This document shows positions 55,510-58,875 of a stretch of DNA of 64,000 nucleotides, in pieces; the stretch's first letter is position 1, and the number at the start of each line of letters is the position of its first letter. The notes under the pieces are model-generated. The model ran no database searches. It saw only the letters and a list, made by a program, of their open reading frames with translations, and had not been told where the DNA came from. The translations under genes and the position numbers were made by a program. The DNA comes from Leptolyngbyaceae cyanobacterium (lineage in GTDB: Bacteria; Cyanobacteriota; Cyanobacteriia; Cyanobacteriales; Aerosakkonemataceae). The DNA lies in NCBI GenBank assembly GCA_036703985.1, contig DATNQN010000035.1, positions 1-64,000 of the forward strand, read 5' to 3'.

Positions 55510-55644
55510 AGGATGGCCTTTTTAGCTATAGCCCCAACCAAAATAAATGATAAACTTATCTTATTGGTCTTGACGGCAACTGATTTACTCTGCTATGGTT
55601 TATAATTGAACGCATATAGCAGAAAAAAACTTTCCGCCTAAATT
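55510..55644. promoter_or_regulatory. Promoter region of the aroF transcript
   Basis: Possible boxes are TTGACG (55570-55575) and TATGGT (55594-55599, 18 bases apart) or TATAAT (55601-55606). A promoter here would transcribe both attenuators before aroF. Not tested. Confidence 0.4.
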
Positions 55645-55701
55645 ATGTTATTCAACTCTAATTACTTTTATTTTTGGTTTAGTACGGTTCACCGGCAGTG
55701 A
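55645..55701 (+). CDS. Leader peptide 1 (aromatic-rich, 18 residues)
   Basis: A frame of 18 codons and stop: MLFNSNYFYFWFSTVHRQ. Seven of the residues are Phe, Tyr or Trp, including Tyr-Phe-Tyr-Phe-Trp-Phe in a row. The stop (55699-55701) lies just after the first half of the antiterminator stem. The ribosome site is weak. Codon content matches control of the common aromatic pathway by Phe, Tyr and Trp supply. Confidence 0.75.
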   Translation: MLFNSNYFYFWFSTVHRQ

Positions 55702-55764
55702 TCCAGGATTCGTACTGGAAACCGAAGGTGAACCGCAGAACAAAATCTGCGGTTTTTGTTTTTT
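55685..55764 (+). promoter_or_regulatory. Attenuator 1: competing stems and terminator
   Basis: Antiterminator: CGGTTCACC (55685-55693) pairs with GGTGAACCG (55727-55735), 9 bp. Terminator: AACCGCAGA (55731-55739) pairs with TCTGCGGTT (55746-55754) around ACAAAA, then a T-rich tail to 55764. The two structures share 55731-55735 and exclude each other. A ribosome finishing the leader would cover 55685-55693 and allow the terminator; one stalled at the aromatic codons would leave it free for the antiterminator. Confidence 0.8.
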
Positions 55765-55770
55765 AAGGGT

Positions 55771-55795
55771 TTGTAGTAAGGACTTCAGTCCTCAT
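55771..55795. repeat. GTAGTGAGGACT palindrome copy between the two attenuators
   Basis: TTGTAGTAAGGACTTCAGTC and CTCAT form one copy of the family found at 34131, 35106, 35137 and 37691, so a dispersed repeat sits between the units. Confidence 0.7.
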
Positions 55796-55813: not shown

Positions 55814-55879
55814 ATGACAGCATCTCTATTCAGTTGGTTTTACGGTTTTTACTTTTGGCCCAGAAACGGTTCCGGGTAA
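55814..55879 (+). CDS. Leader peptide 2 (aromatic-rich, 21 residues)
   Basis: Twenty-one codons and stop: begins MTASL, core FSWFYGFYFW, ends PRNGSG. Eight residues are Phe, Tyr or Trp (four Phe, two Tyr, two Trp). The last codons before the stop (GGT TCC GGG) are themselves the first half of the antiterminator stem. Ribosome site weak. No promoter is evident between the two units, so this is probably read after passage through attenuator 1. Confidence 0.78.
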   Translation: MTASLFSWFYGFYFWPRNGSG

Positions 55880-55939
55880 GTAAATGTCGTGCCAACGCAT
55901 CACCACCACCCGGAACTGTAACAGGTTCCGGGTTTTTTT
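55867..55939 (+). promoter_or_regulatory. Attenuator 2: competing stems and terminator
   Basis: Antiterminator: GGTTCCGGGT (55868-55877) pairs with ACCCGGAAC (55908-55916), extended by C-G. Terminator: ACCCGGAAC (55908-55916) pairs with GTTCCGGGT (55925-55933), followed by T residues to 55939. Both use the same 55908-55916 arm, the classical 2:3 versus 3:4 competition. Leader translation to its stop would cover 55868-55877. Confidence 0.82.
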
Positions 55940-55977
55940 GTTAACTACACTTTTTCATTTCATAAGGAGAAACTCAA

Positions 55978-56835
55978 ATGTTACAAGCTAAACTCGCTTC
56001 TCAAACTGAAACCGATCGGCAAACCGTTATCCAAATTTCGGATAAGGTAAAAATAGGCGGCAAAGACTTGATAATTATCGGTGGGCCTTGTGCAGTAGAA
56101 AGCCTCTCCCAGATGGAAGAAGTCGCCTCGCACCTATCTACCGCACCAGTGCAAGCTTTACGGGGTGGCGTTTACAAACCGCGCACTTCTCCCTACGCTT
56201 TCCAAGGTTTAGGGATGGAAGGTTTGGAGATTTTGGCAGAAGTTAGTCAGCGCTACAATTTACCAGTAGTCACCGAAGTCATGGCTATTTCACAAATTGA
56301 TGCGATCGCAGCCTACGCCGATATGCTACAAGTAGGTAGTCGCAATATGCAAAACTTCGACTTACTCAAAGCATTAGGACAAGCAGGTAAACCAATCCTA
56401 CTCAAACGCGGTTTAGCTGCAACTATAGAAGAATTTCTCAATGCAGCCGAATATATATTAAGTCACGGAAATCCTGACGTGGTGCTGTGCGAACGGGGTA
56501 TCCGCAGTTTCGATAACTATACTCGCAACGTCTTAGATTTAGGTGCAGTCGCCGCCCTCAAACAACTAACTCACCTGCCAGTAATTGTAGACCCCTCCCA
56601 CGCAGTAGGCAAACGGGAATTAGTAGCACCATTAGCAAAAGCTGCCATTGCTTGCGGCGCAGATGGATTAATTATCGAATGTCACCCAGAACCGGAAAAG
56701 TCCGTTTCCGATGCACGTCAAGCACTTTCTTTAGAAGATATGGTGCAATTAGTTCACAATTTAAGACCAGTAGCAGAAGCAGTCGGCAGGCGCATTCCTA
56801 CTCTGAAAAATCAACCTCAACTTCTCGCAGCATAG
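55978..56835 (+). CDS. aroF: 3-deoxy-7-phosphoheptulonate (DAHP) synthase
   Basis: DAHP synthase catalyses the first step of the shikimate pathway, joining PEP and erythrose 4-phosphate. The 285-residue sequence is of the type I-beta (AroF of Bacillus type) group: GGPCAVESLSQM near 35-46, ALRGGVYKPRTSPYAFQGLG, LQVGSRNMQNFDLLKALG, CERGIRSFDNYTRN and VIVDPSHAVGKRELV, covering PEP site and metal residues. No chorismate mutase domain is fused. A strong AAGGAG lies 8 bases upstream. Its leader holds two tandem aromatic attenuators, a good reason to believe all three aromatic amino acids control it. Confidence 0.96.
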   Translation: MLQAKLASQTETDRQTVIQISDKVKIGGKDLIIIGGPCAVESLSQMEEVASHLSTAPVQALRGGVYKPRTSPYAFQGLGMEGLEILAEVSQRYNLPVVTEVMAISQIDAIAAYADMLQVGSRNMQNFDLLKALGQAGKPILLKRGLAATIEEFLNAAEYILSHGNPDVVLCERGIRSFDNYTRNVLDLGAVAALKQLTHLPVIVDPSHAVGKRELVAPLAKAAIACGADGLIIECHPEPEKSVSDARQALSLEDMVQLVHNLRPVAEAVGRRIPTLKNQPQLLAA

Positions 56836-56877: not shown

Positions 56878-56906
56878 AAACCCGGTTTCTTGAAGAAACC
56901 GGGTTT
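56878..56906 (+). terminator. AAACCCGGTTTCT hairpin after aroF
   Basis: AAACCCGGTTTCT and AGAAACCGGGTTT form a 13-bp stem around TGA, followed by CTGTTT. The same element, with one change, ends the HEAT gene at 58882; it is a repeated hairpin that probably serves as terminator. Confidence 0.7.
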
Positions 56907-57096: not shown

Positions 57097-58875
57097 ATGA
57101 ATGATTGGCGTTATTTCTTTCATCACGTTCCCGGTAATTTAGAGAAAGGCACTTATCGCATTTTTGAACCAGAGTGGAAAGCAGAAATATTGCACTGGTT
57201 CAGTCGAGAAGATATCCCCAAAGAACAAAAAGAAGAGTTCGTTAAGGCTCTACTAAATTTCGATGACGGATGCGGAAATTTTTATCGATATCGAGCTTTT
57301 TTCCTAGCTTCAGAAGCTTTAGCTTATTTCCCAGAATGCAGTTTGGGCGATGCAATTGTCAAACAGTTGCTCGATTGGAGTTATGTCTATTTTGGCTGGA
57401 AAAAATTTCCCTTGCGACTGCACGATGCAGCAAAAGCCGCACTGAAATTAACGGACAAAAAACGGGTAATTGCTGCTTTTGTTAGCTTTCTCCATCATAC
57501 TGAAACTCGGCTGGCTTTGCGATGGGCGGCTGAGAAATTGGGAAAACTCGATCGCGGAAACAAAAATGCGATCGCAGCTTTATTGCTACTATTGCAAGTA
57601 ACTCAGGATTCATCCACGCAAATCAAGGCGATTCGCAGCTTGGGGGAAATTGCCTCTGGGAATGAAATTGCGATCGCTACTTTAATTCACCTGATGCAGA
57701 CGACGCTGAATAAGAATGTTTGTTACAGTGCGATCGCATCTTTGGATAAAATAGGTTTTGGCAATCAAACCGCTATTTCTTCCCTCCTCGAATTCTTGCA
57801 GATCAACCGAGGCGATAACATCTGTTTTGATGCAGCTAAAGCTTTGTGGCAAATCGATCCAGGTAATGCAGTTGCGATCGATAATTTAGTAGAGATAATT
57901 GCAACTACTAGAAATGCAGTTCTAGTTGGAAAGGCTGCTAAATACTTAGCCGAAAACGATCCTGCGAACCTAGCTGCGGTTGCTGCTTTAACGGAGAGAA
58001 TTGAAACTAGCCAGGATACATGGCTACTTTTTGTATCTGCTTTCTTCTTAGGCGAATTCGATCGAGGAAATAAACTCACTGACTCTACTATAACTCAAAT
58101 CATTCAAACTACCGAAGATAACTGGACATCCTATCTTGTTTATGAAGATTTGGATATTGAGCCTGAATTTAGCCCGCACAATAAAATTGCGATCGCCGCT
58201 TTTTTGCAAATACTGGAAACCAGCGAAAATGAATTAAGACGTTTGAGAGCCGCTGAATTACTCTTGCAAATTGACCCTAGCAACGAAACAGCAATCTCCT
58301 CTATGTGGGATATATTTCAAAGCTCTGAGGATGAATGGAGGCGTTTGATATGTGCTGAAATTTTGCTACAAATTGAACCGAACAACAAAACTGCAATTAC
58401 CGCTCTCTTGCAGATCCTAGAAACTACTGAGGATGAATGGAACCGTTTGAAAGTAATTAAGTTTTTGTTGCAAAATAAAGAACACCAACAAAAAGCAATT
58501 GATAATCTCATTAATTGGATTGAGACAAATGAAGATGAAGAATTTCTCTTTTGGCTAACTGGAAGATTAGGAGAACTTGACCTCGTTAACAAAATAGCGA
58601 GAACTCAGCTTGACCAAATTATCGCTATCTTTGTCCGCTTGATGCAAACCCACAAAGATAGCAATTATGAATCCTGTCTCTGCTTTAGAGCCGATTTCCT
58701 AAAGGAAATTCTTCCAAGTGATTATTTACCCCAAGTAATCAAATCCCTTAAAAACTATCTGAGCGAACAGTTTTACAAGAGCAGTTCTTATCGCTATGAA
58801 GCAGCGTTTAACCCGATCTGGCATTGTGCCGAAAACATGAATTATCCAGCTTTCTATAAAGCTTGGCACAATTAG
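57097..58875 (+). CDS. HEAT-repeat protein
   Basis: A 592-residue protein of stacked helical HEAT-like repeats from about residue 120 to 480: GNKNAIAALLLLLQVTQDSS, GNEIAIATLIHLMQTT, GNQTAISSLLEFLQINRG and similar 35- to 40-residue units, with a less regular N-terminus (NDWRYFFHHVPGNLEKGTYR) and C-terminus. The repeats are close to those in PBS lyase-like or NACHT-associated cyanobacterial proteins, but no lyase or ATPase motif is present. Probably a protein-protein scaffold. AGGAGG lies only 2 bases before the ATG, unusually close. Confidence 0.82.
   Translation: MNDWRYFFHHVPGNLEKGTYRIFEPEWKAEILHWFSREDIPKEQKEEFVKALLNFDDGCGNFYRYRAFFLASEALAYFPECSLGDAIVKQLLDWSYVYFGWKKFPLRLHDAAKAALKLTDKKRVIAAFVSFLHHTETRLALRWAAEKLGKLDRGNKNAIAALLLLLQVTQDSSTQIKAIRSLGEIASGNEIAIATLIHLMQTTLNKNVCYSAIASLDKIGFGNQTAISSLLEFLQINRGDNICFDAAKALWQIDPGNAVAIDNLVEIIATTRNAVLVGKAAKYLAENDPANLAAVAALTERIETSQDTWLLFVSAFFLGEFDRGNKLTDSTITQIIQTTEDNWTSYLVYEDLDIEPEFSPHNKIAIAAFLQILETSENELRRLRAAELLLQIDPSNETAISSMWDIFQSSEDEWRRLICAEILLQIEPNNKTAITALLQILETTEDEWNRLKVIKFLLQNKEHQQKAIDNLINWIETNEDEEFLFWLTGRLGELDLVNKIARTQLDQIIAIFVRLMQTHKDSNYESCLCFRADFLKEILPSDYLPQVIKSLKNYLSEQFYKSSSYRYEAAFNPIWHCAENMNYPAFYKAWHN

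Follow-up and report, generated by a model that had tools for sequence, protein, structure and literature searches.

From sequence comparison and folding models, we infer that two ribosome-mediated transcription attenuators in series very probably control the DAHP synthase gene aroF in this window (the whole 64-kb stretch that was analyzed), sensing phenylalanine, tyrosine, and tryptophan. Each leader contains a run of Phe/Tyr/Trp codons, and the codons from this run to the stop form a strand, A, that pairs with a strand B as an antiterminator. In each leader, B also pairs with a strand C to give an intrinsic terminator between the leader and the gene downstream (Table 1).

Table 1. Features of the tandem leader region and aroF (positions in the window)
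Feature	Position	Strand	Basis
Likely promoter of the whole leader transcript, TTGACG-N18-TATGGT	55570..55599	+	9/12 matches; TG before the -10
Leader peptide 1, MLFNSNYFYFWFSTVHRQ, then stop	55645..55701	+	Orthologue comparison; consensus ..YFYFWFrxVHRE, then stop
Arm A1, GGTTCACC, within the last codons of leader 1	55686..55693	+	Pairs with B1
Arm B1, GGTGAACCG, common to antiterminator 1 and terminator 1	55727..55735	+	Pairing, folding
Terminator 1, GAACCGCAGA..TCTGCGGTTT and T-rich tail	55730..55764	+	Terminator prediction, orthologue conservation
Interspersed repeat unit, GTAGTAAGGACTTCAGTCCT, small hairpin	55773..55792	+	Between terminator 1 and leader 2 in this genome
Leader peptide 2, MTASLFSWFYGFYFWPRNGSG, then stop	55814..55879	+	Frame read-out, orthologue comparison, selection pattern
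Arm A of attenuator 2, GGTTCCGGGT, last leader codons and first stop base	55868..55877	+	Pairing, conservation, folding
Arm B of attenuator 2, ACCCGGAAC, common to antiterminator and terminator	55908..55916	+	Pairing with A and C
Arm C of attenuator 2, GTTCCGGGT, then T tract (T7)	55925..55933	+	Pairing with B
Terminator 2 (B, loop, C, T tract)	55908..55940	+	Terminator prediction, B:C covariation
aroF, DAHP synthase (type I, Bacillus-like/KDO8P-synthase-like)	55978..56835	+	NCBIfam NF006421 and TIGR01361, both above cut-off

The device would work as follows. With an ample supply of aromatic aminoacyl-tRNAs, the ribosome would reach the stop codon and cover A, leaving B to pair with C, and transcription would terminate. 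When they are scarce, the ribosome would wait within the aromatic run with A free, A:B would form first, and the polymerase would continue. The frames and terminators are kept in many cyanobacteria, and therefore translation of the leaders would appear to sense the supply of Phe, Tyr, and Trp. Two such gates in series would multiply, so that repression would be tighter and the response steeper than with a single gate. The common transcript, termination in the cell, the Phe/Tyr/Trp signal, and the multiplication of the gates are all things that we infer. It is likely that two such attenuators, in series on a single transcript and reading the same signal, form a gate whose effects multiply, and that this arrangement persists in several orders of cyanobacteria, for which attenuation had not been established before.

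A preliminary description of the second attenuator had placed a 21-codon frame with eight aromatic codons, and three arms downstream of its core, at positions that proved exact to the base. The aromatic residues are F6, W8, F9, Y10, F12, Y13, F14, and W15 of 21 sense codons, and aroF begins 39 bases past 55939, as had been stated. That description spoke of three structures with a common arm; there are indeed three arms with B in common, but they make two alternative helices (A:B and B:C), which are mutually exclusive as both need B. The attenuator logic that it proposed also holds up among orthologues, in which the three arms are conserved, together with the frame, its codon spacing, and the place before aroF, and compensatory changes occur. 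The element is not a single attenuator; with leader 1 and its arms it makes up a conserved tandem device.

In a scan of all 140-nt spans, no other place in the window contains the exact 9-nt A/B/A triple, and 1 of 20,000 dinucleotide-shuffled versions of the region contained one. Similarly, the two leaders are the only short plus-strand frames of the window to have at least 7 aromatic residues in 11 codons; please note that the aromatic-run scan itself passed over leader 2, probably because its open frame extends upstream of the ATG.

Upstream of leader 1, a TTGACR hexamer is found at about the same distance from the leader in most orthologues. A promoter-motif scan of the region gave no plus-strand match between the two leaders. 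One transcript therefore probably carries both, and the polymerase would have to pass both terminators to reach aroF. In this genome an interspersed repeat lies between the two attenuators and is present in 118 genomic copies at no more than one mismatch (53 forward and 65 reverse). The stop-to-stop spacing of the leaders is 178 here versus about 146 in most orthologues, and both attenuators are intact despite the repeat. An FYFW core is common to both leaders (55663-55677, TTTTATTTTTGG, and 55847-55858, TTTTACTTTTGG), as are GTTC-type arms; this hints at an origin of the pair by duplication.

The closest relatives of aroF among named genomes are those of Argonema antarcticum and Phormidium sp. 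LEGE 05292, which identifies the window as cyanobacterial. The genome that carries it (G000) is 7.68 Mb in size and encodes, elsewhere, a second DAHP synthase (L002) that is 52% identical to the aroF product. Neither leader is found upstream of this paralogue, which gave no match to either covariance model. Directly 3' of aroF there is a strong inverted repeat (56878-56906, AAACCCGGTTTCTTGAAGAAACCGGGTTT), possibly the aroF terminator, and further downstream (57097-58875) a large repeat-rich protein is encoded, HEAT-repeat-like by eye and without an NCBIfam match.

The orthologue set comprised 110 aroF loci (L001 and L003-L111), four of which are truncated close to the gene, leaving 106 with enough upstream sequence. 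By our own count both leaders stand upstream of aroF in 104 of the 106. The exceptions are L030, which has the leader-1 type only, and L104, which has leader 2 only; together with the distant locus L113, where again leader 2 alone is present, they are possible natural single-gate variants. Covariance-model searches found one copy per genome in 48 of the 148 genomes of the order for each leader model (the two sets of 48 genomes overlap but are not identical), and every match whose position could be compared with that of aroF lay directly upstream of this aroF. The tandem pair also occurs in other orders of the class (L114, L115, L116, and L118). Three hits elsewhere in the phylum (E about 5e-4, in distant genomes) covered the terminator part alone and were taken as chance terminators.

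Selection acts differently along the length of each leader. In the core of leader 2 there were 52 synonymous versus 20 nonsynonymous single changes, a per-site ratio of 20.8, and thus the residues of the peptide matter; the corresponding ratio in the core of leader 1 was 6.1. For the tails the ratios were 1.3 (leader 2) and 0.1 (leader 1). This pattern indicates that the aromatic core evolves as protein and the codon tails as RNA arms. In 87 of 89 distinct sequences, the leader 2 frame has GGG as its final sense codon, and this conservation at the nucleotide level, with which the stall folding model agrees, bears out the earlier proposal that the last leader codons are themselves the antiterminator strand.

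Compensatory changes provide evidence for the helices. When the inner stem is counted with A1:B1, 92% of cells are paired, nine pairs have changed on both sides, and double-change cells number 28 versus 5.4 in shuffles, far above slid controls; terminator 1 is nearly invariant among orthologues. In leader 2, B:C is paired in 96% of cells with 21 double-change cells versus 5.9 in shuffles, and A:B in 95% with just 2 versus 0.2, covariation in the latter being sparse because arm A is nearly invariant. It is important to remember that these double-change counts treat related sequences as separate, and as such they indicate strength, not probabilities. In distant loci, A and B of leader 2 have changed together: CAGGCTCCGGGTGA with TGACCCGGAGCCTG in L114, and GCCCCGGGT with ACCCGGGGC in L116.

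The position of the ribosome was modeled by assuming that it covers 12 nt past the first base of the A-site codon and that the RNA is free from the 13th nt onward. For leader 2, the mean probability of A:B before C is made (61 orthologues) was 0.93 for a ribosome with its A site at the last Trp codon, and it fell to 0.64 one codon further on, 0.12 after two codons, and 0 at the stop. Leader 1 behaved similarly, except that its change lies one to two codons further upstream of the stop. According to this model, the run of aromatic codons stops short of the point at which a waiting ribosome would begin to cover A.

At equilibrium, full-length RNA with a stalled ribosome often prefers the terminator (B:C about 0.4 to 0.75). 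With C present, A:B is thus favored only in part, and therefore the switch must be largely kinetic, A:B forming first during transcription. Largely kinetic switching is usual for attenuators. In equilibrium folding without a ribosome, the terminator of leader 2 was favored (0.88) and, for leader 1, the antiterminator; the models suggest that failed translation initiation may affect the two leaders differently. A 1:2 protector hairpin like that of trp, which would give termination without translation, was also considered for leader 2; the one that RNAalifold predicts is weak and shows almost no covariation, and we do not claim it.

Could the same conservation be explained in some other manner? 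If the leaders were arrest peptides similar to TnaC, the nascent aromatic chain together with a free aromatic amino acid would stall the ribosome, rather than an empty A site. The highly conserved order of F, Y, and W in nearer relatives would suit this, as would the Pro that follows the last Trp in most of them. Yet in distant orders the order drifts and only the aromatic richness stays (NWFFGFFYT, RYFYFYFFW, AYWLFSFFFF, and NWFYSFYFTW), and stalling by plentiful product would raise expression of a biosynthetic gene at times of least need; we regard this explanation as unlikely.

It is less likely still that the frames are independent small genes (encoding a hydrophobic peptide, for instance) or small RNAs that end in ordinary terminators, unrelated to aroF. 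The compensatory changes in the A:B antiterminators, the single copy per genome upstream of the same aroF, and tails that are conserved as RNA and not as peptide all argue against this, as does L113, in which arm A is kept despite a shifted reading frame through it; the strong terminator that closes each frame is the one point in its favor. A ligand- or protein-binding leader (a riboswitch, a T-box, or the target of an RNA-binding protein) that merely happens to hold the frames could account for the conserved non-coding stretches around the leader stop codons. Such a leader is the least probable of these explanations, given the strong coding signal in the aromatic core and a scan of the window with the Rfam covariance models, in which no family reached its gathering score (Trp_leader, Phe_leader and the like, T-box, and riboswitches included). 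Two attenuators in series remain our preferred reading.

If confirmed, this arrangement would mean that transcription and translation in cyanobacteria are coupled closely enough for attenuation. It would also add a new point of control over entry into the shikimate pathway, of use in the engineering of aromatic products, and would offer a natural two-gate series for asking why a single attenuator is insufficient.

A 2016 survey of leader genes stated that reliable data on the mechanism of attenuation were lacking for cyanobacteria (PMC4833913), and we found no later report of cyanobacterial attenuation in the literature searched, which lay mostly outside subscription journals. In the passages of the TyrA paper (PMC1173090) that were consulted, none of Merino's predicted attenuators listed there is cyanobacterial. 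The nearest description is that of the uORFC-13-1 motif, reported upstream of aroF in Acholeplasma and environmental sequences with 24 representatives (PMC8632094). Compared by description, it too combines a predicted uORF that contains Phe codons with a terminator next to it, before a DAHP synthase gene, but it is single, and at least one Phe residue is described rather than an aromatic run.

The enteric trp, pheA, pheST, and his attenuators share with the present pair a leader peptide with many residues of the amino acids under regulation, a mutually exclusive antiterminator and intrinsic terminator, and an antiterminator strand that is hidden by translation to the stop. Unlike them, the elements described here have no Rfam match, place the antiterminator strand within the last leader codons, stand two in series before a cyanobacterial DAHP synthase gene, and have all three aromatic amino acids as the likely signal. 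Biosynthetic genes are normally under a single attenuator (PMC3641672). The mgtCBR leader of Salmonella, which has two short frames and two attenuators responding to ATP and proline, was called a “singular example” (PMC3641672); the arrangement here likewise has two frames and two attenuators, but both frames are aromatic and the gene is biosynthetic. The type of attenuation is thus a known one with classical logic, and what is new is the phylum and the unusual placing of two attenuators in series with the same signal.
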